This document shows, piece after piece, positions 4,084 through 21,377 of a stretch of 31,731 bases of DNA (position 1 is the stretch's first letter; each line of letters opens with the position of its first letter). The DNA is from a virus, in the IMG/VR virus record IMGVR_UViG_3300047551_002345, positions 1 through 31,731 of that record; one strand, written 5' to 3'. The translations under genes and the position numbers were made by a program. The notes under the pieces were generated by a model. The model made no database searches. It worked only from the letters and a program-made list of their open reading frames with translations, and had not been told where the DNA came from.

Positions 4084-4234
4084 CCATGTGTTCCAGGGAT
4101 TCAAGCCTGGTCAACATCTCTGCAATCATATTGATCGTGATGGGATGTTCGGCCCTAGCTGCAAATGCCAATGCATCACGCAACGCTTCCGTCGCCTGCT
4201 TCACTGACTCCTTCACTTGATTCGACAGGGCCAT
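4034..4234 (-). CDS. Small helical protein of unknown function
   Basis: A 66-aa product starting at ATG 4234 (MALSNQVKESVKQ), chosen because AAGGA lies seven bases upstream. It is almost entirely predicted helix, with acidic and amide residues and no Cys (ESVKQATEALRDALAFAAR; later MLTRLESLEHMDEIMERFG). Amphipathic spacing suggests a small coiled-coil or dimer. It sits between two other small genes that overlap it. Function unknown. Confidence 0.65.
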   Translation of the reverse strand: MALSNQVKESVKQATEALRDALAFAARAEHPITINMIAEMLTRLESLEHMDEIMERFGGQAVRKEV

Positions 4235-4376
4235 TTCCGATTCCTTGGGTTCTCTCAGTATAGGTGCGATTATCAGCATGGAGTTTGGAAATCTTCAAAC
4301 TATGGAGCAACTGATTATGGTTATCGAGAAATTCGTAACCTTGGCTCAGTGCATTCTCATATTCTGGCAGTGCCAT
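4176..4376 (-). CDS. Small hypothetical protein after the GDPD-like gene
   Basis: A 66-aa frame beginning at ATG 4376, seven bases after the stop of 4384..4878. The first 50 residues (MALPEYENALSQGYEFLDNH, then QLLHSLKISKL) look like real protein. The last part runs through the start of 4034..4234 in another frame for 59 bases, which is long for this genome. No Shine-Dalgarno is evident. I keep it because otherwise about 140 bases of a packed operon would be empty. Confidence 0.45.
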   Translation of the reverse strand: MALPEYENALSQGYEFLDNHNQLLHSLKISKLHADNRTYTERTQGIGNGPVESSEGVSEAGDGSVA

Positions 4377-4383
4377 AACTAAA

Positions 4384-4878
4384 TCAAAGTTGGGTTAACT
4401 CAATCTTACTGGTTGGAAAGTCCGAACAGATTACATCTGCATAATCTGAACAGATCGAATAGATATTTTTGCTCCTCCATTCCTTTACCTTCTCTGCAGT
4501 CGGTGGCTCCAGGTCCACCAGGATGCAGTCGGGGCCAGCATGACAGTTGGGATATGTCCAGATCTTGCCCTTGCTGGTGAGCGTATAGGTATCGGTATCA
4601 TGCCAGAAGCAGTGATGTTGGTCCTTAAGCAGGTACAAGGCAGGAAGGTTCTTGCAATGGAAGATCAGATAGTCATTTCGTTCTTTGATCCAATGCAGAT
4701 CAACAAAGTGCTCTGGCTTGTCATGGCCTAGGTAGAAGCATCCTTCGACAAACCGAATGTCAACCTCTACCTCGTACAACTCATCAATTGCTTTATCGAT
4801 ATAGCCAGGAGTATTTTCTAGTTCAGGCTTCCTTCCCCGTAGGTTGCCACGGTGGGAGATCGCACTTAAGAACGACAT
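4384..4878 (-). CDS. Short GDPD-like (glycerophosphodiester phosphodiesterase-related) protein
   Basis: A 164-aa protein resembling the start of the GDPD/PI-PLC-like TIM-barrel: SHRGN near residue 8, then PELENTP, YEVEVDIRF and LGHDKPE, which match the family's catalytic His, Glu/Asp pair and second His. It is much shorter than ordinary GDPD enzymes (about 240 or more residues) but resembles a compact group I recall near surface-polysaccharide genes, with CFWHDTDTYTLTSKGKIWTY and a C-terminal CSDF. The gene overlaps the nucleotidyltransferase gene as TAATG. In this setting it may cut or transfer a glycerol-phosphate or other phosphodiester group on a glycan. Fold call is good; substrate is unknown. 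Confidence 0.75.
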   Translation of the reverse strand: MSFLSAISHRGNLRGRKPELENTPGYIDKAIDELYEVEVDIRFVEGCFYLGHDKPEHFVDLHWIKERNDYLIFHCKNLPALYLLKDQHHCFWHDTDTYTLTSKGKIWTYPNCHAGPDCILVDLEPPTAEKVKEWRSKNIYSICSDYADVICSDFPTSKIELTQL

Positions 4879-6248
4879 TACGCAAACTCTTTCAGGAATA
4901 CATCAAGGTCTTCTGGTGTACCAAGCCCGTGCATAGCTCGAACTGGGACTGCAGAAATTTTTTTGCCTTCCTTGATGGCGTAATTATATGCAGGACAAAT
5001 GTAAAACTCGCCAAGTGTGCGGTCATCCGCCGCAATCATTTGGTCAACGTACTTAACGAAGTCGCTGCCCTTACGCCACCAGTACACACCGCAGGTAGCG
5101 TCATGACTGATGGGTTTCTTCTCGGCAACCTCAATGATATCTGTGCTGCCAGGTGCACGCTTGACATAGCTCCACTTCGGGTGGGTGCTATAGAACGTAA
5201 AGATCGCACCATCAGCATCCGTATTCTCCAGCTGGTACAGGCTGTGGATCGGATCCCACTCCAGGTACTGGTCGCTGTTGAGGATCAGCAGGGGCTTGTC
5301 GTTATCGATCAGCTCACGCGCCAACATCGCTGTGCATGCGGCACCCTCGGTCACGCCATCGACTGGGACCACATTGGAACCAGGGGAGATCAGGTTCATC
5401 AAGCTGGGCAGGCTGTACTGCTCGATGTGTTCCTGCTGGGCAATGAACGTATAGTTTGCCTTGATGCCAACGTTCTCAACCACCCACTGGATCATGGGTT
5501 TGCCACGTACATCAATCAACGGTTTAGGGAACGTATAGCCAGCAGCTGCAAACCGTGACCCACGGCCTGCCATTGGGATCAGTACGTTGAGATCATTCAT
5601 GTGCGGCTTTGCCTTGACAATCACTTCTTCTGTAAGGATGTTAATACCTTTCTGAATCTTTTCGGCAGTCAGGTCTAGACGATTCTTAACGCAGATCACA
5701 TGGGCACCGGAGTCCAGCGCAGCTTGCTGGCCAACATGTGAATCCTCGAACACCAACGTATTAGAAGGTGTTGCATTGCACTGGATCATGCACTGCCAAT
5801 ACAAATCAGGGGCTGGCTTCTTCCGTGACACCTCATCCGCACTGACGAAATAATCAATGAAGGGAAACAGGTGTAAAGAGTAGAGCGCATTCTGCACTGA
5901 CTTCCGGATGCAGTTAGATGCAACAGCAACCTTGATGCCTGCACTCTTGATTTGGATCAACAGCTCGATCAGCTGTGTATCCATCTCAAACTCATTAAAG
6001 TATTCAGTGGTTAACTTTTGTTTTAATTCCCACACATTCTTATGGCGTTCGATTGGTAGTCCACGCTCACGCGTCAACATCTCCAGCTTCACGCTGGTAG
6101 GTAAGCCGTCATACGTGCGAAGATGCTCCTCGCGGCTAATCACATATTTCGGATCAATCTCTGCCAGGGCCTCATTAAGGGCTTGGTAATGGATGTCCTT
6201 GCTGTCAACAAGAACACCGTCAAGGTCAAAGCAGATCAGCTTATTCAT
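4878..6248 (-). CDS. HAD phosphatase fused to a sugar nucleotidyltransferase
   Basis: A 456-aa two-domain enzyme. Residues 1 to about 210 are a HAD hydrolase of the beta-phosphoglucomutase/phosphatase type: DLDGVLVDS at 8-16 with the two catalytic Asp, SN in VAVASNC, the KKP lysine and FEDSHVG. Residues about 217-456 are an NDP-sugar pyrophosphorylase-like domain opening LIPMAGRGSRF with FPKPLIDVRGKPMI, followed by the LNSDQY metal site. Together they could dephosphorylate and activate a sugar or polyol phosphate. An internal Met (MNDLNVLIPMAG) could in principle start the second domain alone. ATGA overlap with the glycosyltransferase before it and TAATG with the GDPD-like gene after it make one coupled operon. 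Confidence 0.88.
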   Translation of the reverse strand: MNKLICFDLDGVLVDSKDIHYQALNEALAEIDPKYVISREEHLRTYDGLPTSVKLEMLTRERGLPIERHKNVWELKQKLTTEYFNEFEMDTQLIELLIQIKSAGIKVAVASNCIRKSVQNALYSLHLFPFIDYFVSADEVSRKKPAPDLYWQCMIQCNATPSNTLVFEDSHVGQQAALDSGAHVICVKNRLDLTAEKIQKGINILTEEVIVKAKPHMNDLNVLIPMAGRGSRFAAAGYTFPKPLIDVRGKPMIQWVVENVGIKANYTFIAQQEHIEQYSLPSLMNLISPGSNVVPVDGVTEGAACTAMLARELIDNDKPLLILNSDQYLEWDPIHSLYQLENTDADGAIFTFYSTHPKWSYVKRAPGSTDIIEVAEKKPISHDATCGVYWWRKGSDFVKYVDQMIAADDRTLGEFYICPAYNYAIKEGKKISAVPVRAMHGLGTPEDLDVFLKEFA

Positions 6249-7789
6249 TTTGAATCAACCTCTAGGAAATACTGTTGGTCGCGATGCTCTTTCTGGTGGC
6301 ACACCAGTGAGTTGTAAGCGCATTTGAAGTGGACATAAGGCGCAACACGCCGTGTCCATTCCAGGTCTTCTTCCTGCATATGGCCCAGGCGTTCATCAAA
6401 GGGGTGGTCAAGCAGGAGACCACGGTGCACGCAGAAGATATTGCCGGAGATATAAACCTCATCATTGTGATCCCAATCCTTGTAGTCATAGAACTGGCGA
6501 TCATCTAACTCACGTGGTCCACAGAAGCCGCTCCAGTCATACCAAAACCTGCCGCCGTCGCTCCGTTGTTGCGGGAACGCAAGTATGTTCCAGCTATTCC
6601 AGCACTCAAACTCCCACAGCTTCTTGGCCCAGTCCGGGGTCAGCCACAAGTAGTCGTGCAGGAGGCACAGGCGATCAAAGTCTGCCTTCTGCGCCAGGAT
6701 GTTTTTCTTCTTGGTGATCCACAGGGGACGGACCGATTCATCAAATTCGATGTACTGGATGTCAGGGTGTTCCAGCTCCTTAACAATTTCCTCCGGAGGC
6801 TCTGGGCCAATCACCAAGATCTGGTAGTCATCAAGATGTGTGGCTTGCTTGCGGATGGAATCAACACACTTGATCAGGTGCTCGGCATTGTCATAGCCAG
6901 TGCAAATGCCAAAGGTGATAGTGAAATCCTTGGATTCTTTGTCGCCATGAATGATGTTGATCGTGTGCTGACGCAGCCGGTCTTTATGGAACGCAACAAC
7001 ATCTGGGTTGGGAACCACGGGCTCCTTGTGTTTGATCTCGGCATGGAGTTCGGGGTCCACAAGAATTGCGTAGCCCGCATCACGGATGCTCTTGCAGAAT
7101 CCCCAGTGCTCACAACCTTTGTCGCCATCCCAACTGATGTCACCGTCTTCAAAAACTGCACCATGGACTAGGGCAATGGAGCCAAAGGCACTCTGAACTT
7201 CGACAGGAAAGTCGTCATCCCAGAGGCGACGATCATCAGGATCAACAAATGGATTGGCAGCAAACGTCATGCCCTGGTTCCCATCCATGTCAATGAGAGC
7301 CCAGCTGTCGTAATAAGACGGTAAGCCGGTGTCACCGATGGCGTCCGTAACATCCTGCACCGTGTTGGGTGTGATCATGCCAATGGTGGGGTCCGCTTCC
7401 AGCTCCTCGACCATCCGCTCAATCAGATCAGGACGGAAGTGGACATCACTGTCGGCAACCAACAGGTAATCAAAGGCCCAGAAGTCCAGGACACTCAGGC
7501 ACACGTTGCGATAACGGGCCAACCACTTAGTACGTTCGGTGGATTGGACACTGCCCCACTTGCGAGAACCAGTCTTCTCGCTCAACAAAAAACCTTTGCG
7601 ATCATCCAGCCAGCGCATCAGTATGCCAGCCGTCATGTCCTTGGAATCGTTCTCCAGGAATGAGTAGATGAACCGATATCCCTTGGGGATCAGTTCATTT
7701 TCCATCCATTCGTACTGAGCAAGCGCATGCCCAATGTGCTCACTACTATCTCGCCACAGTGTCAACACTGCGATGCGCTTGCCAGCCAT
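6245..7789 (-). CDS. Double-domain GT-A glycosyltransferase
   Basis: A 514-aa protein with two glycosyltransferase-like halves. The N-terminal half (about 1-275) opens RIAVLTLWRDSSEHIG and has YRN, then DYLLVADSDVHF as DxD motif and a later EHWGFCKSIRDAGY; this resembles the CAP59/GT69-like mannosyltransferases. The C-terminal half (about 285-500) begins FTITFGICTGYDNAEHLIK and IRKQ, the start of a GT2-like GT-A fold, with HDYLWL where the metal-binding motif would lie. It heads the sugar operon, overlapping the HAD fusion as ATGA. It would transfer two sugars, or one domain may be structural. Donor and acceptor are unknown. Confidence 0.82.
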   Translation of the reverse strand: MAGKRIAVLTLWRDSSEHIGHALAQYEWMENELIPKGYRFIYSFLENDSKDMTAGILMRWLDDRKGFLLSEKTGSRKWGSVQSTERTKWLARYRNVCLSVLDFWAFDYLLVADSDVHFRPDLIERMVEELEADPTIGMITPNTVQDVTDAIGDTGLPSYYDSWALIDMDGNQGMTFAANPFVDPDDRRLWDDDFPVEVQSAFGSIALVHGAVFEDGDISWDGDKGCEHWGFCKSIRDAGYAILVDPELHAEIKHKEPVVPNPDVVAFHKDRLRQHTINIIHGDKESKDFTITFGICTGYDNAEHLIKCVDSIRKQATHLDDYQILVIGPEPPEEIVKELEHPDIQYIEFDESVRPLWITKKKNILAQKADFDRLCLLHDYLWLTPDWAKKLWEFECWNSWNILAFPQQRSDGGRFWYDWSGFCGPRELDDRQFYDYKDWDHNDEVYISGNIFCVHRGLLLDHPFDERLGHMQEEDLEWTRRVAPYVHFKCAYNSLVCHQKEHRDQQYFLEVDSK

Positions 7790-7796
7790 GAATGGG

Positions 7797-7958
7797 TTAC
7801 AGATCTACCCGAATATAAGAGATTTCTTGCTCCTGTAAACGTTTCTCTAATTCATCGGCTTCAATTGTTTCAACATCTTCAAACGCTTTGCCATTTAGGC
7901 AACCGGTTCTGCAATCCTCATCTGTATCAAGGTAGAACCGCGTGAGATTTGATCCCAT
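7797..7958 (-). CDS. Small acidic protein between HLIP and glycosyltransferase
   Basis: A 53-aa frame starting at ATG 7958 inside the 3' end of the HLIP gene (32-base overlap in another frame) and stopping seven bases before the glycosyltransferase ATG. It reads MGSNLTRFYLDTDEDCRTGC, then NGKAFEDVETIEADELEKRL and ends YIRVDL. Composition is protein-like and it exactly fills an otherwise empty gap. The start is uncertain and no family is recognised. Confidence 0.5.
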   Translation of the reverse strand: MGSNLTRFYLDTDEDCRTGCLNGKAFEDVETIEADELEKRLQEQEISYIRVDL

Positions 7959-8196
7959 CGATCAGGCTCCAAAGGCTGGTATGAGTTGTGAATTCGTACA
8001 GCAACACAACCGTCAACGCCAACATCGCAATACGTCCGTTCACCCGCTCGGCGTACCAGATGTGATCGTCAAAGTTTGTATGGCCTTCCCAGAATTTTAA
8101 GTCAGGGCATTCTTCCAGGAGCCACTTCAGTAGCGCAGGAAACAACCAACCAAGGCAAGACCAGTATCCCTTGACCGTCAGCAGGATCTTTTCCAT
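7927..8196 (-). CDS. hli: High-light-inducible protein (HLIP)
   Basis: An 89-aa protein with the chlorophyll-binding helix signature of HLIPs: AERVNGRIAMLAL at residues 49-61, with E50, N53 and R55 at the usual pigment-ligand and helix-pairing sites, followed by hydrophobic VVLLYEF. HLIPs bind chlorophyll and carotenoid at photosystem assembly sites and quench excess light; cyanophages use them to keep photosynthesis running. Unusually for the family it has a long N-terminal extension with a second hydrophobic stretch (YWSCLGWLFPALLKWLL, residues 11-27). It overlaps the 33-aa membrane peptide gene upstream by one base (TGATG), so the two are probably made together. Confidence 0.9.
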   Translation of the reverse strand: MEKILLTVKGYWSCLGWLFPALLKWLLEECPDLKFWEGHTNFDDHIWYAERVNGRIAMLALTVVLLYEFTTHTSLWSLIDGIKSHAVLP

Positions 8197-9842: not shown

Positions 9843-12478
9843 CCAGCCGTAATCAGCAGGCCCTCCGTCCAGGGGAGATCAATCTTGGTTTCATCCCCAT
9901 GGATTGGCCCCTCACCCCACTGGGTGCCAAGAAGGATCCGTATGTCAACGGCTGGCAAAACAAACCGTTTAGCGTCCGCGAGATCGAGGAAGAAATCGTA
10001 GCAGGCAAGTGCCGTGCCATCGGCTTGCTTGGTGGTCCTGTCTACAACCATCCCTACGGATTGGTCTGGGTCGATATCGACGGTCCAAGCGTTTACCAGC
10101 TGGTGGAGGGGATCTCTGACCTTCCCTTATCCGAAGCGCTGCCGCCAACTCTGACCATCATGAGCGGCAAGATTGGCCGCGAACGCAAGCTTTACAAGCT
10201 CAGCCGCGAGAAACACAAGCACTTCGCTCGGAACAAGTACACCTGGCACGCAGAGGAAGATAAGGAAAAGCTTGAAATCCTTTGGCAGCGGCACCAAGGT
10301 GTGCTCATGGGTCTGCACCCTGAGACCGATGGCTACTTCACCGCTGAGGGTCAGGGCTTTGAGTGGGTGGATGAGCTGCCGGAATTTCCGGAATGGCTGT
10401 TGAACGCCATCATCAATAAGAACGTCAGGCAGGGAACTCCCGCTAAAGAACGCACTCGCATCGTTGGCCCTGGCTTTGCCATCAACGCTGAGGTGTCCTT
10501 AGAGCGGGACATGAAACTGGCGACAGAAGCGATGTGGGCTCTGCCGCCGGAAGCTGCCGATGACTACGACATCTGGATCACGATTGGCCAGACGCTTCAC
10601 AGCTTGGATGAATCCCTGCTCGACAACTGGGATGAATGGTCCAAGCAATCAGAGAAGTACCGGGACGGTGAGTGCCACAGGCGCTGGCGTTCCTTCTCAA
10701 AAGATGGGGGCCGTGGCTTGGGCTCTCTCATTCATATCGCACAGGAGCATGGGTGGAAGCCTTCCCAGGAACACCGTGCGATGAATGTGGACGATGACAC
10801 GCTAGAGCACGTATCAAAACTGCTGGCTGAACTTGAACAGGATTTACAGATGGCACCAGAAATTCTTGAGGAAACCACTGCTCCCACTGCTGCTCCACCG
10901 ATGTGGAAGAAGCGGCAAAAGCAGGTGTCACAAGACAAGTCAGGCAAAGACCAACGGACGCGAAACCCTTCATCAAACGTAGTTACTGACGTTGTTCTGG
11001 ACCTGTATAAAGGCAATCTGCTTTTCAGTCAACCGCACAACCAGTTCTTCCTGTATGAAAAGGAGGCCCGTGGACTCTGGTCACCCCTGACCAAGATCTC
11101 AATCTTGGGGGACATCCGCTCCAAGCTTCAGTCGCTGGGTGACTTCCTGCCGAATGGCTTCAGCACCAACTTGATGAACGATGTCTGCACGCAGCTGCAG
11201 TCAGTGCTGGCCTTCGATGAGTGGTATGACAGCTCTGAGTACCTGCTGTTTACCAACGGTGTGCTGAATGTAGAGACCAGGGAGCTGCTTCCGTTCAGCC
11301 GGGAAATGCACCTGGTGCAACAGATGCCTTATCCCTACAATCCTGCTGCCACCTGTGAAGAAATCATTAAGTGGCTGAAGAATACGCAGCATGACAGCTG
11401 GGAACGCACTCAAGTTCTGCGGGCCTGGCTGCGGGCAACACTGCTCGGGCGCTACGAGATTCAGAAGTTTGTAGAAATTGTCGGCCCTGGTAAGTCGGGT
11501 AAGTCCACCTACGCCAACCTGGCTGTGGCACTGGTGGGTAAGAGCAATACCTACTCCACGGACTTTGAGAACATGGAGAAGAACCGCTTTGAAGCAGCGG
11601 CCTACATGGGTAAGAAACTCTTACTTTTCCAAGATGCTGACCGTTGGGGTGGTTCTGTTTCCAGGTTGAAAGCCATCACTGGTAGTGACTGGATTCGTAG
11701 CGAACGCAAGTATCAAGGCGAAGGATTGGATCCTTTCCAGTACCACGGCGTTGTGATGATTACGGCCAACGAAGCCATTCAGTCCACCGACTACACCTCT
11801 GGTCTGGCACGTCGTCGTCTCACCATTCCCTTCGACCGTCCGTTCACGGGCGGCCCGAACGAACAGAAGGAACTGATCAAGTTCAATCCCAAGGGTGAAC
11901 CGCAAGGTGTGTTCGCACCGCTGTTGCCTGGGTTGGTGAACTGGCTCCTCGACATGACGGAAGAGGAGATGCGTGAGTACCTGATGGAGACTGCCAAGAA
12001 GGTGAAGTTCTTCCAGAAGTACGAGAAGATGCAGAACCTTCGCTCTAACCCACTGCTGGATTGGATGGAGCACAAGGTCATCTATGACCCAGGCGTCAGT
12101 TCTGCTGTTGGCTTTACCAAAAATGCACCGATGGGCTCATCCCATATTTACGCCAACCAGGACAAGTGGCTGTATGCCAGCTACGCCGAGTTCTGCCGTC
12201 AGTGCAACGTGGGTATCATGTCGCGTAACCGATTTGAACCCCTATTTATTGACATCTGTAAGCACCAGCTCAAGATCAATGCCTTTCCCATGCGTAATAC
12301 CAGGGGTATGCGGGTCGTGAACGTAGCGGTTAGGGAGTCCAGCCCGAAGTACGAAGGTTGGCCTTCCATTGTTGAGGTGTCGTCCGATAAGGAAAAGTAC
12401 AAAGAGTTTTATGGGATGTCGCTAGAAGCAACCTCTGATGCGACAATGGAGGATGAACTAGAAATTACAGATGTCTAA
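9839..12478 (+). CDS. Primase-polymerase/SF3 helicase fusion (D5-like)
   Basis: An 879-aa replication protein. The N-terminal third resembles a bifunctional prim-pol domain: IPMDWPLTPLGAKK at the start, VWVDIDG near residues 77-83 with paired Asp for metal binding, and GVLMGLHPETDGY near 155-168. A middle region with WITIGQTLHSL and W.SFSKDGGRGLGSLIHIA (about 245-300) is the PriCT/D5-N-like part. The C-terminal SF3 helicase has Walker A GPGKSGKST (about 548), Walker B LLLFQDAD (about 595) and motif C GVVMITANE (about 637) with an arginine-rich ARRRLTIPF after it. Such proteins prime and unwind phage DNA. Overlaps speD by eight bases. Confidence 0.9.
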   Translation: MTSRNQQALRPGEINLGFIPMDWPLTPLGAKKDPYVNGWQNKPFSVREIEEEIVAGKCRAIGLLGGPVYNHPYGLVWVDIDGPSVYQLVEGISDLPLSEALPPTLTIMSGKIGRERKLYKLSREKHKHFARNKYTWHAEEDKEKLEILWQRHQGVLMGLHPETDGYFTAEGQGFEWVDELPEFPEWLLNAIINKNVRQGTPAKERTRIVGPGFAINAEVSLERDMKLATEAMWALPPEAADDYDIWITIGQTLHSLDESLLDNWDEWSKQSEKYRDGECHRRWRSFSKDGGRGLGSLIHIAQEHGWKPSQEHRAMNVDDDTLEHVSKLLAELEQDLQMAPEILEETTAPTAAPPMWKKRQKQVSQDKSGKDQRTRNPSSNVVTDVVLDLYKGNLLFSQPHNQFFLYEKEARGLWSPLTKISILGDIRSKLQSLGDFLPNGFSTNLMNDVCTQLQSVLAFDEWYDSSEYLLFTNGVLNVETRELLPFSREMHLVQQMPYPYNPAATCEEIIKWLKNTQHDSWERTQVLRAWLRATLLGRYEIQKFVEIVGPGKSGKSTYANLAVALVGKSNTYSTDFENMEKNRFEAAAYMGKKLLLFQDADRWGGSVSRLKAITGSDWIRSERKYQGEGLDPFQYHGVVMITANEAIQSTDYTSGLARRRLTIPFDRPFTGGPNEQKELIKFNPKGEPQGVFAPLLPGLVNWLLDMTEEEMREYLMETAKKVKFFQKYEKMQNLRSNPLLDWMEHKVIYDPGVSSAVGFTKNAPMGSSHIYANQDKWLYASYAEFCRQCNVGIMSRNRFEPLFIDICKHQLKINAFPMRNTRGMRVVNVAVRESSPKYEGWPSIVEVSSDKEKYKEFYGMSLEATSDATMEDELEITDV

Positions 12479-12896
12479 TGGGCGTCACCTGATTCTGGAT
12501 CTGTATGACTGCGATCCAGGGGCATTAGATAACTACGACCTGCTGGAAGAGTGGCTTAGGACCGCTCTTCTGATGTCGAAGGCAACGATCCTCAGGATCA
12601 TCGGTGAGAAATTTGAGCCGCAGGGTGTAACACTACTGGCCCTACTGGCTGAATCTCACGCCTCTATTCATACCTGGCCGGAGATGGGGTACGCCGCTGT
12701 TGATCTATACACCTGCGGGGATACCACCAACACGCACAAGGCTGCTGAGTTTATGAAGTACAAACTCAAGGCGCAAACATCGGAGGAGCGGGAACTGACA
12801 CGTTCTGTCACCCCTGGTGAAGCAGGAGCTATTGCTGCACTTGAGAATCTGTACGAAACAAATAGCGAAGGAATGGAGCAGCTTGCTAATACGTAA
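12471..12896 (+). CDS. speD: S-adenosylmethionine decarboxylase
   Basis: A 141-aa prokaryotic-type AdoMetDC that makes decarboxylated SAM for spermidine synthesis. The self-cleavage motif ESHASIHTWPE begins at E61, so S62 would become the pyruvoyl group; H67 is the conserved processing His, and C82 in LYTCGD matches the catalytic Cys. Length fits the short bacterial class. SpeD is a known cyanophage auxiliary gene; polyamines may support DNA packaging or photosystem stability. The ATG at 12471 lies within the end of the primase-helicase gene. The C-terminal 20 residues after VTPGEAGA are polar and may be disordered. Confidence 0.9.
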   Translation: MSNGRHLILDLYDCDPGALDNYDLLEEWLRTALLMSKATILRIIGEKFEPQGVTLLALLAESHASIHTWPEMGYAAVDLYTCGDTTNTHKAAEFMKYKLKAQTSEERELTRSVTPGEAGAIAALENLYETNSEGMEQLANT

Positions 12897-12955: not shown

Positions 12956-14212
12956 ATGGCTAAAAAACCGAAGCTTCTTTGGATTGGTGACGTAATTGCC
13001 ACCACTGGTTTTGCACGCGTCACGCACAACGTCGTAGATCGGTTGAAAGATAAATACGAGATCGTAATCCTGGGTTGTAACTGGCATGGTGACCCAGATC
13101 CCATGCAGCACACCTACAAGATGTATCCGGCATCTAACCGTTTTCAGCAAGGTGCTTTTGGGGAGGAACGCATTCGGGAAGTTGTTGAGATCGAGAAGCC
13201 TGACGTGGTGTTCTCTATCAATGACTGCTGGATTATTAATGAACAGTACCGCCGGGTGCATGACCTCCACCAGCCACTGGGCTTTAAGTTCGTGGGGTAC
13301 ATGCCCATGGATTCCTACAACTGGGTTGGTTGCCTCAACGAAACCGCCAACGCATGGGACGCCATCGTTTCCTATACAGAATTTGGGGCACACGAATTCA
13401 TCAAAGGTGGGATTGAGAAGCCCATCACGGTGATTCCCCACGGCGTCACGGCTGGTCAGTTCAAGCCTGGTGACAAGATTGAGGCACGCAAGAAGCTGGG
13501 CCTGAAGGAGGATTCCTTTATTGTCTTCAACGGCAACCGCAACCAGTTCCGTAAACGGATTGATATCACGATTGACGCTTTTGCTGATTTTGCAATCGAT
13601 AAGCCGGAAGCTCAGCTGTACCTACATATGGGAACTAAGGACCAGGGCTGGGATGTGATGGCTGTGTTTGCACGGGAGATGCAGAAGCGTGGGCTTGATC
13701 CCAACGGTCGCATCATCATGACTTCCAATACGGCCAATCCACCATCGGTATCGGTGGACATGCTGGAAACGATCTATCAGGCGGCTGACGTGGGCGTCAA
13801 TACCTGCAAAGGTGAGGGCTGGGGACTGGTGAACTTTGAGCATGCGGCCTGCCGTGTGGCCCAGGTGGTGCCAGATCACACCTCCTGCAAGGAGATCTTC
13901 GAGGACTACGGCCGTCTCATCCGCTGCGACCACGTTGATGTGGATACCAACTTCGCCCGCGAGATGCCTTGCCCCTCCTCCGTCCACTTGACCGAGATCC
14001 TCAACGAACTGTACGCCGACCGCGCCCAGCTCGATGCCGTGGCTGAAGCGTGTTACCTGCGGGCTACCGACGAGATGTTCAGCTGGGACACGATTGCTGC
14101 TCAGTTTGACGGGGTGTTCCAGGAGGCACTCAACCCTGTACTGGAGCCGGAGGCGCTGGTCAAACCTAAGAAGAAAGGGAAGAAAGCTGAGAAGGAGCTG
14201 GTGCCCGCCTAA
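12956..14212 (+). CDS. GT4-family (GT-B fold) glycosyltransferase
   Basis: A 418-aa retaining glycosyltransferase. N-terminal Rossmann domain opens KLLWIGDVIATTGFARV; the linker has ITVIPHGVTAGQFKP, typical of GT4; the C-terminal domain has FIVFNGNRNQFRKRIDI and the nucleotide-sugar motif GEGWGLVNFEHAA near residues 286-298 (E-x7-E). The last 20 residues are Lys-rich (PKKKGKKAEKELVPA). It probably adds a sugar to phage DNA, virion or host surface, alone or with the minus-strand sugar operon. It stands as its own transcription unit with a possible promoter before it and a strong terminator after it. Confidence 0.87.
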   Translation: MAKKPKLLWIGDVIATTGFARVTHNVVDRLKDKYEIVILGCNWHGDPDPMQHTYKMYPASNRFQQGAFGEERIREVVEIEKPDVVFSINDCWIINEQYRRVHDLHQPLGFKFVGYMPMDSYNWVGCLNETANAWDAIVSYTEFGAHEFIKGGIEKPITVIPHGVTAGQFKPGDKIEARKKLGLKEDSFIVFNGNRNQFRKRIDITIDAFADFAIDKPEAQLYLHMGTKDQGWDVMAVFAREMQKRGLDPNGRIIMTSNTANPPSVSVDMLETIYQAADVGVNTCKGEGWGLVNFEHAACRVAQVVPDHTSCKEIFEDYGRLIRCDHVDVDTNFAREMPCPSSVHLTEILNELYADRAQLDAVAEACYLRATDEMFSWDTIAAQFDGVFQEALNPVLEPEALVKPKKKGKKAEKELVPA

Positions 14213-14248
14213 CGTCAGACGGGACGAAGATCCTGTGGGGAACCGAGG

Positions 14249-14274
14249 GCCTCTGCTACGGCAGGGGCTTTTTT
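14249..14274 (+). terminator. Strong Rho-independent terminator with UACG tetraloop
   Basis: GCCTCTGC, loop TACG, GCAGGGGC (8-bp stem with one G-T pair), then six T. The closing C(UACG)G is the very stable UNCG tetraloop. It lies 36 bases after the GT4 stop and ends that transcript. Confidence 0.9.
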
Positions 14275-14521
14275 CATGCGTTGGTGCGGCACGAAGGCAC
14301 GAAAGTACAGATGTATCAAAATCTCAGGGTGGGACTCGAATGTCGGTGCAGAGATGCAGACTTTGGGGGTGTTTTAACCCTTACGCGACGTAAATGACAC
14401 TGTGAGTAAAAGTGTTATTTAGCTTTAATAAAGGTAAAAATGGGGTCAAAGTCTGCAAGTCTGCACGGGCAAATGACAAAACGACCCCCTACAATGTCAT
14501 GGCTCACCCGAAGAACCCGTC
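14275..14521. other. Non-coding gap with inverted repeats
   Basis: No convincing gene on either strand. An 11-bp inverted repeat pairs tgcagactttg (14355-14365) with caaagtctgca (14447-14457), and a second partial copy agtctgca follows at 14459. Between the arms there is an AT-rich stretch with acact...agtgt (about 14397-14415) and ttatttagctttaataaagg. This could hold an operator, a promoter for the following HNH-like gene, or a replication origin. Confidence 0.45.
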
Positions 14522-15214
14522 ATGGCAAGCGTTGTAAGGAAGCTCCAGCAGATCGAGAAGGAGTTTGGGCAGCCCAATTTCCGTCATGTCCAGGGCATCG
14601 AGAACATGGAGGAGGAAAACCTGAACAAACTTGGCTACTACCGGGGGTTTGCTTGTGCTCACGGCCATCTCATTCGGGACTCAGAACGACATTGGTGCTA
14701 TGAGTGCGCCAAAAAAATCCTGAGTAACGTCTGCGGTTTCGATATCAACTACCTACACAAGGACTACAAACACAAATACGCCAAGCTCTGGAAGAAAATC
14801 AAAATCTCATTCCCAGAGGAGTGCTGGGAGATGGAGATGCCTGGTGGTGGTACGCCCAAGAGGGTGTGCCTGCCGTCGTACCGGTCGGGCTACAGCAAGC
14901 AGAAATCCGAGAACGTGAACATCCACAAGGCGGTGTACCAGTGTGCGTGGGGGGATGTGGGGGCGCTGGTGGTGACCAGGCTGTGCAGCAACCCCAAGTG
15001 CGCCAACCCCTTGCATATGGTGTCCAGCTTTAACCGCAACTACCCGCCCGCAAGCGTCACACCGCTGGAAGTTGACTTCAAGGCAGAGAAGCTTATGCTC
15101 TTCAACCGCCAGTCTCAACGTGAGTCTGGTATTCAACCAGTGGTACAACAAGAGTTCAAGAATATGATTACTCACCCGGAATATGTGAAAGATCGCCCCG
15201 AGTACAATGAATAA
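14522..15214 (+). CDS. HNH-like zinc protein, catalytic His possibly replaced
   Basis: A 230-aa protein with two Cys/His clusters. The first, residues about 41-61, has CAHGH and CYECAKK. The second (about 156-170) is CSNPKCANPLHM, the zinc-binding core seen in phage HNH endonucleases, preceded by VYQCAWGDVGALVVTR. In typical members a His lies two residues before the first Cys (HxC); here the tripeptide is RLC, so the metal-binding His may be lost and the enzyme inactive or altered. It could be a homing-type endonuclease or a DNA-binding zinc protein. Start ATG 14522 has no strong Shine-Dalgarno; TAA ends at 15214. Confidence 0.65.
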   Translation: MASVVRKLQQIEKEFGQPNFRHVQGIENMEEENLNKLGYYRGFACAHGHLIRDSERHWCYECAKKILSNVCGFDINYLHKDYKHKYAKLWKKIKISFPEECWEMEMPGGGTPKRVCLPSYRSGYSKQKSENVNIHKAVYQCAWGDVGALVVTRLCSNPKCANPLHMVSSFNRNYPPASVTPLEVDFKAEKLMLFNRQSQRESGIQPVVQQEFKNMITHPEYVKDRPEYNE

Positions 15215-16958: not shown

Positions 16959-17120
16959 TCAGTCGGGCAACGCCTGAAACCAATACACGCAGCCACCTTG
17001 TTTTTCAACCCATTCACGGGTTGCATATGCGTCACTCTTGTCTAGGGTGACGCATTTTCTTTCATCACCTACTTCCCAGCAGATGTTCACGCGGATGCGT
17101 GGTTCTTTATATTTTTTCAC
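16959..17120 (-). CDS. 53-aa small protein coupled to the endolysin
   Basis: GTG at 17120 overlaps the endolysin TGA as GTGA, the usual coupled junction here; a longer frame to 17168 is not needed. The product is MKKYKEPRIRVNICWEVGDE followed by LDKSDAYATREWVEKQGGCV and WFQALPD. Conserved-looking Trp and Cys residues suggest a compact domain. It might be a lysis accessory factor by position only. Confidence 0.65.
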   Translation of the reverse strand: MKKYKEPRIRVNICWEVGDERKCVTLDKSDAYATREWVEKQGGCVYWFQALPD

Positions 17121-18238
17121 TTGCTGATCAGAATTGCCCAGCCTGTGTTGTTTCCGTCGCACTCCCATCGGCGTAACCAGTTTTTCCTGCTGTACTCTAC
17201 ATTTTTACCTTTGGCGGCATTGTTGTTGACATACCCGCCATTGATCATGTCTGCTTCTCCGTTGGGATCGTTGAACACAAACGATGTTGGCGTAAAACCT
17301 ATGCAACAGGTCCAATGTCCACCGCCAGTGGGGTAGCTGACGGTACCTTTATGTAACCAACCAACAGCAACTGGCCTGCCGTTACGGATCTCGTTTTCCA
17401 GTAACGCAGTATTCCCATTGGTGACAAACTTGGCAGTAAGTCCCAGGAATTTCAAGGCTGCGAGTTGAGCGTTGCGATCCGTTGTGTCCCCGTATTTGCT
17501 ACGGATTTTGTTGTACTCATCATCGCTTTTAACCTTGCCGTAATATTCGGCAATCATGGCGCAAGTGGACGAGAAGCACTCCCTGTAACCTTTGCCGGAT
17601 TGGTTATCCAGCTGGTACTCATAGGGAACAGACAGGATCTTTCGATCAATCACACCTGGTTCAGCAGGATCAGGCTTTTGCATTTGCCGATCCATGATCT
17701 GAATTAATTTGGTCACATATCCGGGATCAGTAGCGTAACCTTCCTCTTTAAGAAGTTGAGCGCACTCATTCCTGGTTGCTGCTCGATTGACGCCTTTGTA
17801 TCCATTGAAATCTTTGTACCAACGTGTAACTAGATAATCAACACATTCGTACAGGCTGCCAAACTTCTTAAACCAATCTTTGATCTGAATTTCTTTGCCA
17901 CCAATGAATTCGCTGGTGGTGACGTAGCATCCTTCTCCGTCTTTGGATTTAATGCCAAAGTAATTGTGCGTGCAGGAGGTGTGCTGACCCTGAGCACTCT
18001 CTAAAAACCACTGCGCTGCAACGCATTCCGGAAATTTAGCACCTGCTTTTTTGGCGGCTGCCAGGACGCCATCCCAGGTGTTCGGGAACTCTTCCGTTGG
18101 TTTAGGTGCATTGCGATACTTCAGCGCAAATGACTCCAAAACATCAGGTGTGACCTGAGCCTGGAGCCAGTTCCACGCATCAATCTGATGAGGTTCTTTC
18201 TTAAAGAACTCAACAGCATCAGTCAGCTTTATTGACAT
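17117..18238 (-). CDS. Two-domain endolysin: GH73 glucosaminidase + C39-like peptidase
   Basis: A 373-aa lysis enzyme. Residues about 50-185 resemble GH73 (FlgJ/LytD-type) glucosaminidase: AAQWFLESAQGQHTS with probable catalytic E80, HNYFGIKSKDGEGC, then WFKKFGSLYECVDYLVTRWY and a late GYATDPGYVTKLIQIM. Residues about 200-373 resemble a papain-fold C39-like peptidase: VPYEYQLDNQ, a Cys at 221 in RECFSSTCAM as nucleophile, H308 in GGGHWT and D324 in NDPNG completing a triad. It would cut both glycan strands and peptide bridges. No signal peptide, so it needs a holin. A hairpin abuts its start codon (18240..18268). Confidence 0.85.
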   Translation of the reverse strand: MSIKLTDAVEFFKKEPHQIDAWNWLQAQVTPDVLESFALKYRNAPKPTEEFPNTWDGVLAAAKKAGAKFPECVAAQWFLESAQGQHTSCTHNYFGIKSKDGEGCYVTTSEFIGGKEIQIKDWFKKFGSLYECVDYLVTRWYKDFNGYKGVNRAATRNECAQLLKEEGYATDPGYVTKLIQIMDRQMQKPDPAEPGVIDRKILSVPYEYQLDNQSGKGYRECFSSTCAMIAEYYGKVKSDDEYNKIRSKYGDTTDRNAQLAALKFLGLTAKFVTNGNTALLENEIRNGRPVAVGWLHKGTVSYPTGGGHWTCCIGFTPTSFVFNDPNGEADMINGGYVNNNAAKGKNVEYSRKNWLRRWECDGNNTGWAILISK

Positions 18239-18989: not shown

Positions 18990-21377
18990 CTAAGACGCCT
19001 TGAGAGTTGCTACTTCAGCCTGCAGCTCAGCAATCATTACCTGCTGTTCTTGTATGGCTTTGACTAAAACCGGAATTAAGTCTTGGCGCACTGACTTGTA
19101 AGGCTCCTCTCCCTCCGGGTGGTTTTCGCCTTTTTCCCATTCGTCAATCAGATCAGGGAATACCTCTTCGACTTCTTGCGCGATGAATCCCCTGACGCTT
19201 TTGCCGGTGTTGCCAAAGCCTTCTTTCCAGTCAAACCTACGAGGCTTAAGCGCGAGAATCGCATTGAGTCCTACATCAAGATCTTTGATATTTTCTTTCA
19301 GCCGACGATCTGAAATTGCACTGATAGTTGTACTGGTTGCATAGATGGTTCCACCAAAGCCGACGTAAAACCTATAAGCAGCTGCACCGGTTGAGTACAT
19401 TGAGTATCCAATCGAGCTATCTGTTGTGTCGGCTGCGCCGAGTTGCATCCTGGCCGAACTAAGTATTTTGATTCCTGTACCAGATCCAACATTGGCATCG
19501 GTTGCGCCACCGGCCAGTATGTTCCTTTGGTTGTCAATGCGCATTGCCTCCGTCGGAGAACTCGCCCCATCCGCAGTAGTCGAAAACACTAAACGCCCTG
19601 GGCAGTCACCCGAAGCCCATGCTCCTGCTTGATCATTTTCAGCAGCAATAAATGCGGCACTGCGGAAATTAGTTCCGTCATTGCCAACAAAGTTGATGCC
19701 GCCAATTTGATAACCGCCTGGCGTAGCTGTGTTGGTCCCTAAAGTATTGCTTCCAGAAGATCCGATTGAAAGCCATGGTGCATAACCACTGGCTGTGTAG
19801 TTAATAAGAGCAAGGCCATTGTCATAATTATTTGTTGCCGTGTTTACTTGTGCAAAAGGAGTAGAAGCTGTACTGCCGACATAAATGTTGCTACGCGCTG
19901 TAGACGTGCCCACTAAGAGCCTACGACTTGAGTCGATTCGCGCTGCTTCACTGCCATTTTGATACCAAATGTGATAACCACTGGCTCCCCCAAAATATTC
20001 ATGAACATTTTGATTGTTTGTTCTGTCATAAGTCAGGAGAGTGTTGGTTGCAGCACCTGACATGCCGATTGACATGCTGCCGCTTGTATTGACAAAGCGA
20101 ACGAATCCGTTTGTGGAGGTTGTCGATTGAACCCTGAGTTCTGTATCTGCGGAGGAAACGTGCAACGCAGTGGCTGGAGTAGTACCAATCCCTAGACTGC
20201 CGAAGCTATCAAACCGAGCAATCTCCGTAGCTTTATTGTTTTTGGTAAATCTAATTACCCCGCCAGTGCCAGGGGCATCAATAACTACTGAACTTCCAAT
20301 ACCGATTTCTTCGCCGCCGCCAATAGAACCATAATAAGAGTTTGCTACGTCAAACCTAATAGTTGCTCTTGTGCCTACTCCAGCTCCTTGGTTGGAAACC
20401 CACAAGGGAAATGTTTCAACACCGTTACTTTGATCGTTGATTTCAAGGCGGCCATCAGGCGAACTCGTCCCAATCCCTACGTTGCCTGCGGAGGTGATGC
20501 GCAGTTTTTCGGTTTGAGATCCTGCAACGGCGTCCCCTGTGTAGAAGTAATGGCCACCAACATTTGTAGTTCCTTGGGCAAAGTATCCAATACCACCAGC
20601 GCCAGCAGTATTAGAGCCACCGTTCCATCGTGCAATGCCAACGTTGAATAACGTGCTACCACCATCTCCAAGAACAATGCTGCCTTGAGATTGCGACGAA
20701 TTGCTGATTCTTACCTGATCAAGGACTTGCAGTTGCGACTGAGGGCTCGAAACCCCTATGCCTAAACGCCCTGAGGAGTCAATTACCGCATGTGCGGTAG
20801 TGCCAGAATCAGTGCTAAGAAGAATCTTGCCGCCATCGTTTCGGATGACGGTATCACCTAGAGTACTGTTGGCGATAATATTTCCTGCACTATTTGCTAC
20901 ACCAATCCAGGATTCTGCTGTTATTCCAAGACCAAACCGAATAACGCTGGTTTGTCCACCAGCTCCAGCGGTTGCTGTTAAATCTAAAACAGCATTGGGC
21001 GAATTCGTCCCTATGCCGACATTTGTTCCTGAAACCGTTAATACAGCTGAGCCATTTGCGGCAATACCAACCGTATTAGCTGCACCTGTAAATAGACCAG
21101 TATCTAAATCACCAGCAAAAGCAATGGATGGCGCAGCAGCAGTGCCCGATGCAAATACGCCAGAAGTAATCGTTGCAGTTGTAAATTGTCCTGCAGTACC
21201 AGTTACAGTTGCGCCAGATACAGTACCACCTCTGACAACACCGCCAGAAATGGTGCCAGTTACTGTGATATTTCCACTAAAGGTCGGGTTCTGAACCAGA
21301 CCAGAAATCGAGACACTCTTATCAACGCCAGCATCCGTAAAGGTGACCGTATCAACCTTGATAGTTCCGTATGGCAT
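18990..21377 (-). CDS. Tail fibre/spike with C-terminal S74 chaperone
   Basis: A 795-aa fibre. The N-terminal part begins MPYGTIKVDTVTFTDAG and then repeats VTGTISGGVV-type units. The body (about 90-680) is Ser/Gly/Asn-rich beta-helical sequence in which the unit VGIGTSSP or LGIGTTPA recurs (at least five times), each starting a new layer. From about residue 690 there is a Peptidase_S74 intramolecular chaperone: SDRRLKENIKDLDVGL with the catalytic Ser-Asp, LALKPRRFDWK and GFIAQEVEEVFPDL, followed by a coiled coil. The chaperone trimerises the fibre and then cleaves itself off. It is the longest receptor-binding candidate here. Confidence 0.9.
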   Translation of the reverse strand: MPYGTIKVDTVTFTDAGVDKSVSISGLVQNPTFSGNITVTGTISGGVVRGGTVSGATVTGTAGQFTTATITSGVFASGTAAAPSIAFAGDLDTGLFTGAANTVGIAANGSAVLTVSGTNVGIGTNSPNAVLDLTATAGAGGQTSVIRFGLGITAESWIGVANSAGNIIANSTLGDTVIRNDGGKILLSTDSGTTAHAVIDSSGRLGIGVSSPQSQLQVLDQVRISNSSQSQGSIVLGDGGSTLFNVGIARWNGGSNTAGAGGIGYFAQGTTNVGGHYFYTGDAVAGSQTEKLRITSAGNVGIGTSSPDGRLEINDQSNGVETFPLWVSNQGAGVGTRATIRFDVANSYYGSIGGGEEIGIGSSVVIDAPGTGGVIRFTKNNKATEIARFDSFGSLGIGTTPATALHVSSADTELRVQSTTSTNGFVRFVNTSGSMSIGMSGAATNTLLTYDRTNNQNVHEYFGGASGYHIWYQNGSEAARIDSSRRLLVGTSTARSNIYVGSTASTPFAQVNTATNNYDNGLALINYTASGYAPWLSIGSSGSNTLGTNTATPGGYQIGGINFVGNDGTNFRSAAFIAAENDQAGAWASGDCPGRLVFSTTADGASSPTEAMRIDNQRNILAGGATDANVGSGTGIKILSSARMQLGAADTTDSSIGYSMYSTGAAAYRFYVGFGGTIYATSTTISAISDRRLKENIKDLDVGLNAILALKPRRFDWKEGFGNTGKSVRGFIAQEVEEVFPDLIDEWEKGENHPEGEEPYKSVRQDLIPVLVKAIQEQQVMIAELQAEVATLKAS

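Follow-up and report, generated by a model that had tools for sequence, protein, structure and literature searches.

Cyanophages are already known to carry surface-sugar clusters of the lipopolysaccharide (LPS) or capsule type, whose proposed role is to change the host surface and so hinder rival phages (PMC7824862); the review of these clusters contains no mention of glycerophosphodiester phosphodiesterases (GDPDs). The closest parallels to the locus described here are in the large clusters of the Kyanoviridae phages S-CAM9, B23, DSL-LC03, S-SM2 and Bellamy, which contain full-length homologues of its HAD-nucleotidyltransferase fusion (51–55% identity) and/or its small GDPD-like protein (33–45%) among GT11 and GT25 glycosyltransferases (GTs), epimerases, and heptose isomerases and kinases. 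Those clusters are larger, lie in genomes of 144–244 kb, include sugar-making enzymes and have no tandem GT; by contrast, the cassette reported here consists of only three genes, includes a tandem GT, and is carried by an S-EIV1-like phage. It is found in a freshwater cyanobacterial virus, IMG/VR record IMGVR_UViG_3300047551_002345, an incomplete record whose 31,731 bases are called the window below. On the basis of its predicted proteins and their genomic company, we read the cassette as an accessory set by which the cyanophage may remodel the host surface glycan (LPS/capsule type) during infection, and give this reading a probability of roughly 0.6. What is new here is the compact form of the cassette, the site at which it is swapped, and the partnership between the GDPD and the nucleotidyltransferase.

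The cassette and its enzymes

The features of the cassette are as follows (position in the window, strand, description, basis; aa, amino acids; ORF, open reading frame; AF2, AlphaFold2):

6245..7789, minus: tandem glycosyltransferase, 514 aa, two GT-A domains (ORF, Pfam, AF2 model)
6935..7789, minus: GT-A domain 1 (about aa 1–285), DxD at D113–D115 (stand-alone homologues)
6248..6928, minus: GT-A domain 2 (about aa 288–514), WITKKKN...HDY...EEDLEW (stand-alone homologues, alignment A6)
4878..6248, minus: HAD phosphatase + nucleotidyltransferase fusion, 456 aa (Pfam HAD_2, NTP_transferase)
5625..6248, minus: HAD domain (aa 1–208), D8, D10, S111, K144, E168/D169 (motif residues, PDB profile)
4881..5594, minus: nucleotidyltransferase domain (aa 219–456), MAGxGSRF...PKPLI, D326, GTPED (alignment, PDB)
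4384..4878, minus: mini-GDPD phosphodiesterase, 164 aa (residue pattern, profile, fold)

The initial annotation had noted three genes overlapping as ATGA and TAATG, and the ORFs, their common strand and both junctions are confirmed: ATGA at 6248-6245 joins the GT to the fusion, and TAATG at 4880-4876 joins the fusion to the mini-GDPD. Four further contigs of the same phage clade (L002–L005) have the trio in identical order, intact in three of them, which speaks for more than a chance arrangement. The ATGA junction is also present in L002 and L003, and TAATG is the same in L002 and reads TGATG in L003. The GT and fusion frames of L005 are broken, which is likely an assembly error since further genes of that contig are broken too. 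The three intact relatives show purifying selection; the ratio of nonsynonymous to synonymous substitution rates (dN/dS) is 0.01–0.11 across the comparisons where it is computable, and against L002 it is 0.06 for the GT, 0.05 for the fusion and 0.01 for the mini-GDPD. Scans counted 12 promoter sites (6.7 expected) and 10 terminator sites (5.6 expected), of which none was decisive.

The fusion matches Pfam HAD_2 (4.1e-28) and NTP_transferase (1.1e-7), in agreement with its first description. The HAD motif residues D8, D10, S111, K144 and E168/D169 are invariant in nine fusions, and in a wider set of 15 sequences all remain so except position 111, which is Ser or Thr. The closest profile is that of β-phosphoglucomutase (1lvh in the PDB, 1.8e-25), with which the domain shares the HAD core and cap and retained H20 and K76. 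The mutase's Arg49, Lys117 and Asn118 bind the distal phosphate of its substrate. The GVSRED arginine and the ASASKN Lys-Asn are missing from the window protein; the Arg49 position aligns as T/K and the Lys117/Asn118 loop is changed. Because these residues are absent, the domain is more likely a phosphatase than a mutase, and the attractive idea of a phosphomutase feeding the nucleotidyltransferase domain is rejected on the same grounds. In the nucleotidyltransferase domain the G, G, R, F, P and K of the GxGxR...PK signature and the metal-binding Asp are invariant in 18 sequences; its closest PDB profile is 4evw (E 9.3e-35), with sugar-1-phosphate nucleotidyltransferases ranking below. Judged by these conserved catalytic residues, both domains look active.

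The 164-aa protein is the least conventional of the three. None of 97 members of its family matches a Pfam GDPD family at E ≤ 0.01, but residues H9, R10, N22, E38, D40, H52, D53, H74 and K76 are invariant in all of them, and these include the HR, N, ExD and HD catalytic set of GlpQ, UgpQ and other GDPDs. Its profile finds the solved GDPD 3i10 in the PDB (6.5e-5). The AF2 model (mean predicted local distance difference test, pLDDT, 91.1; predicted template modelling score 0.86) matches GDPD 1v8e in Foldseek (E 6e-4, probability 1.00), and nearly all of its best PDB matches are GDPDs, at a template modelling (TM) score of about 0.5 with gaps, as a reduced TIM barrel would give. Known enzymes are about 220–280 aa long, against about 150 aa here, and have Pfam matches and other genomic partners. 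Residues, profile and fold agree in spite of the missing Pfam match, so the call of a GDPD-type enzyme is right, with glycerophosphodiester hydrolysis its putative activity; by sequence these proteins form a distinct mini family of GDPD. The window protein also matches phrog_34507 (7e-31), which is labelled as of unknown function. In the active-site check set beforehand the residues proved to be conserved in the HAD, nucleotidyltransferase and GDPD domains, and there was no refutation.

Further observations concern the wider mini-GDPD family. Its best match in BFVD, a library of viral structures, is A0A3G5A5B5 of Homavirus sp. (32% identity, E 3.6e-14); this 523-aa protein of a giant virus is named as an FkbM methyltransferase and has a mini-GDPD-like domain. 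In L012:5992-7239 and 23 similar loci (24 of the 97) the mini-GDPD is fused to a roughly 260-aa domain that carries a DSD motif and for which a family search found no family. Comparison of that domain's profile with GT domain 1 gave a probability of 5%, and homology is not claimed.

The "double GT" of the initial annotation is borne out by Pfam and by fold comparison. CAP59_mtransfer (9e-8) and Glycos_transf_2 (1e-7) both match in domain 1, and the AF2 model has two GT-A domains (pLDDT 79.9, modelled poorly around residues 145–179). Its best PDB fold match is K4 chondroitin polymerase (2z86, E 7.5e-17), followed by COLGALT1, heparosan synthase (8vh7) and LARGE1, all of them tandem GT-A enzymes. 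Like 2z86 and 8vh7 the window protein has two GT-A domains in one chain, but its identity to these two is 11–13%, the whole-chain TM-score against tandem GT-A structures is about 0.3, since the arrangement of the domains does not match; two GT-A domains are therefore firm, and polymerising activity is only putative. Both domains have stand-alone homologues: domain 1 (about 275 aa) is found in viral contigs L199–L203 at 59–62% identity without the rest of the module, and domain 2 in 47 of the 97 mini-GDPD loci. D113 of domain 1 is invariant in alignment A2, and D115 is replaced by N in L004.

The partnership in viruses and in SAR11

In diverse phages the mini-GDPD almost always accompanies the nucleotidyltransferase, with or without the HAD domain. 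Two samples were taken, each made up of the closest relatives listed, the fusion query having been built from GDPD-bearing loci. Among loci chosen by the mini-GDPD, 88 of 93 also have a nucleotidyltransferase domain and 68 have the HAD domain too. Conversely, with the fusion as the criterion of choice, 71 of 79 viral loci have a mini-GDPD, mostly less than 1.5 kb away, and after dereplication at 85% identity it is in the same locus for 39 of 41 fusions. With at least 593 mini-GDPD and at least 547 fusion matches in 2.9 million IMG/VR contigs, chance co-occurrence would be expected to give far less than one case. The linkage holds in other arrangements as well: the domain order is reversed (nucleotidyltransferase-HAD) in L021–L023, and the two domains are separate genes in L019. 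A limited search of the open-access literature found no description of a GDPD paired with a nucleotidyltransferase in connection with capsules or phages.

The same pair is present on cellular chromosomes. A scan of genome contigs with strict patterns, using a closer subset of the mini-GDPD alignment, found 13 loci on SAR11/alphaproteobacterial chromosomes, mostly in single-cell genomes of Pelagibacteraceae. In seven of these the mini-GDPD gene directly adjoins a HAD-nucleotidyltransferase fusion of the same length; the remainder have a nucleotidyltransferase nearby without HAD (four), a fusion about 2 kb away (one) or a contig end (one). The domain order of the fusion, its near-equal length (mostly 456–457 aa) and the directly abutting genes are as in the window, but in SAR11 the GDPD gene comes first, there is no tandem GT, and the fusions form a clade of their own (support 100/98), with the window and L004 fusions on a separate long branch. 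Of 247 genomes of the order of Pelagibacteraceae, 14 have a strong match, so the trait is accessory there. The scan, with its strict patterns, gave no cyanobacterial match and was not a phylum-wide cyanobacterial search. The sole SAR11 locus annotated, L113, has two Wzy_C O-antigen ligase/polymerase proteins, two NAD-dependent epimerases and a group 1 GT nearby.

These neighbourhoods bear on the main rival explanation for the GDPD, phosphorus scavenging, in which a UgpQ-like mini-GDPD would act on phospholipid head groups to free glycerol-3-phosphate, with the HAD domain helping to release phosphate for phage DNA synthesis. Viral ugpQ genes have been listed among phosphorus-acquisition genes (PMC10987575), the DSL-LC03 copy is annotated as a glycerophosphoryl diester phosphodiesterase, and the catalytic residues are intact. 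The explanation nevertheless fits the neighbourhood poorly: the near-constant partner is a nucleotidyltransferase and not pstS, phoA or transport genes; in S-SM2 pstS and phoA lie about 6 kb beyond, past the glycan genes; the annotated SAR11 pair adjoins polysaccharide genes; and scavenging leaves no role for the GT and nucleotidyltransferase of the same operon. We consider it improbable.

About equally improbable is that the product is a secondary metabolite or other soluble small molecule, derived from a nucleotide sugar, and not a surface glycan. A second class of cluster with HAD, cupin and methyltransferase genes has been proposed in jumbo cyanophages (PMC7824862), and cupin and methyltransferase genes recur next to mini-GDPD genes; set against this are the tandem GT-A enzyme, nearest in fold to polysaccharide polymerases, the GT-rich context and the O-antigen polymerase neighbours. 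DNA modification, which had also been suggested, is rejected in view of the cellular polysaccharide context of the enzyme pair and the polysaccharide-type GT-A domains.

The site of the cassette and its neighbours

Along nearly its whole extent the window has genes that match Synechococcus phage S-EIV1 (for example primase 57%, exonuclease 64%, dCTP deaminase 73%), which identifies the window as a fragment of an S-EIV1-like cyanophage. On one side of the cassette both phages have the exonuclease, a high-light-inducible (hli)-like ORF and a 53-aa ORF, and on the other 66-aa and 81-aa ORFs. The nearest of these in the window are:

7927..8196, minus: hli-like protein, upstream neighbour (S-EIV1 13732-13887, 56% identity)
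7797..7958, minus: 53-aa ORF, upstream edge (S-EIV1 13902-14054, 47% identity, E 1.8e-12)
4176..4376, minus: 66-aa ORF, downstream edge (S-EIV1 14686-14874, 48% identity, E 2.4e-7)

Between the same flanks S-EIV1 has a single 196-aa gene (14057-14647), whose sole Pfam match is Methyltransf_24, under the cut-off; thus the cassette is accessory and swappable with one methyltransferase-like gene. The hli-like protein has the stretch AERVNGRIAML and a match to Chloroa_b-bind (9e-4, under the cut-off), and its homologous frame in S-EIV1 carries no annotation there.

A third alternative, decoration of the virion, would place the glycan on capsid or fibre proteins, where it might serve as a shield for the virion or in binding to the host. 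A collagen-repeat fibre gene (1607-2938) is on the same strand as the cassette, which lies 1.4 kb upstream of it, with several small genes in between. S-EIV1, which has no cassette, still has virions, the same enzyme pair is chromosomal in SAR11, and protein-family scans matched no protein-glycosylation family. We regard this alternative as unlikely, and the suggestion of virion or DNA decoration made at the outset is unsupported.

Elsewhere in the window, a second GT (group 1, phrog_2170, 12956-14212, plus strand) has a counterpart 65% identical in S-EIV1 and so, unlike the cassette, is common to the clade. A 141-aa S-adenosylmethionine decarboxylase is encoded at 12471-12896 (plus), and the homologous S-EIV1 frame appears split. 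There are two lysis-type enzymes, a glucosaminidase with a C39-like peptidase (17117-18238, minus) and a phage lysozyme (27142-27795, minus). The tail fibre (18990-21377, minus), which has a terminal S74 intramolecular chaperone, matches S-EIV1 in short stretches only and is therefore probably variable with host range.

Proposed remodelling of the host surface glycan

The conserved neighbourhood, the fusion in both domain orders and the adjacent chromosomal pair in SAR11 indicate that these genes belong together, and their assignment to a surface-glycan module is well supported. In such a module the HAD domain might dephosphorylate a (bis)phosphate of a sugar or polyol from the host, leaving a sugar or polyol phosphate that the fused nucleotidyltransferase would couple to a nucleotide. 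The tandem GT-A enzyme could then extend an acceptor by a single residue, a pair of residues or a short repeat. The mini-GDPD would act as a phosphodiesterase on an intermediate or a branch of the glycerophospho- or sugar-phosphodiester type, either supplying it or trimming or editing it. By altering the receptor surface the phage would probably bar its competitors from the infected cell; such blocking of superinfection is plausible, as a similar role has been proposed for other cyanophage clusters (PMC7824862).

Several points weigh against remodelling of the host surface. The cassette has no sugar-making enzyme (no isomerase, kinase, epimerase or dehydratase) and must therefore use host sugar phosphates; the scanned proteins of the incomplete contig include no epimerase, isomerase or kinase for nucleotide sugars, and several GTs together with such enzymes, by which cyanophage clusters are defined, are not found in the cassette. 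Neither a lipid carrier nor a flippase or export gene was recognised in the 31.7 kb fragment. Sequence alone does not identify the donor, the acceptor or the substrate of the GDPD, and 4evw, the nearest structure to the nucleotidyltransferase, is generically named a "nucleoside-diphosphate-sugar pyrophosphorylase", no substrate being stated for it. None of 50,697 phage records matches the double GT, so its part in the partnership is supported by five contigs, all of one clade, and by the homologues of its domains. Thus, of the initial annotation, a phage-borne surface-sugar module with active-looking domains stands, and the "entire mini-pathway" for a phosphoglycan does not; the GDPD can be read in other ways than as a sign of a phosphoglycan.

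More speculatively, the mini-GDPD and the (HAD-)nucleotidyltransferase could be the core of an undescribed phosphodiester-containing surface-decoration pathway exchanged by SAR11, cyanobacterial hosts and phages, in which the GDPD would help to make or edit the decoration and would not serve phosphate scavenging; we hold this broader idea only tentatively, and think it less likely than not to be correct. The cassette itself is a small testable unit, of four or five domains, for the rewriting of host surfaces by aquatic phages. A gene that may be named "glycerophosphodiester phosphodiesterase", and counted as phosphorus acquisition, adjoins a sugar-activating enzyme in most of the phage loci examined. 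If the pair does make a phosphodiester-type decoration, this phage cargo would be linked to the surface loci of SAR11, which are among the most abundant bacteria in the ocean.

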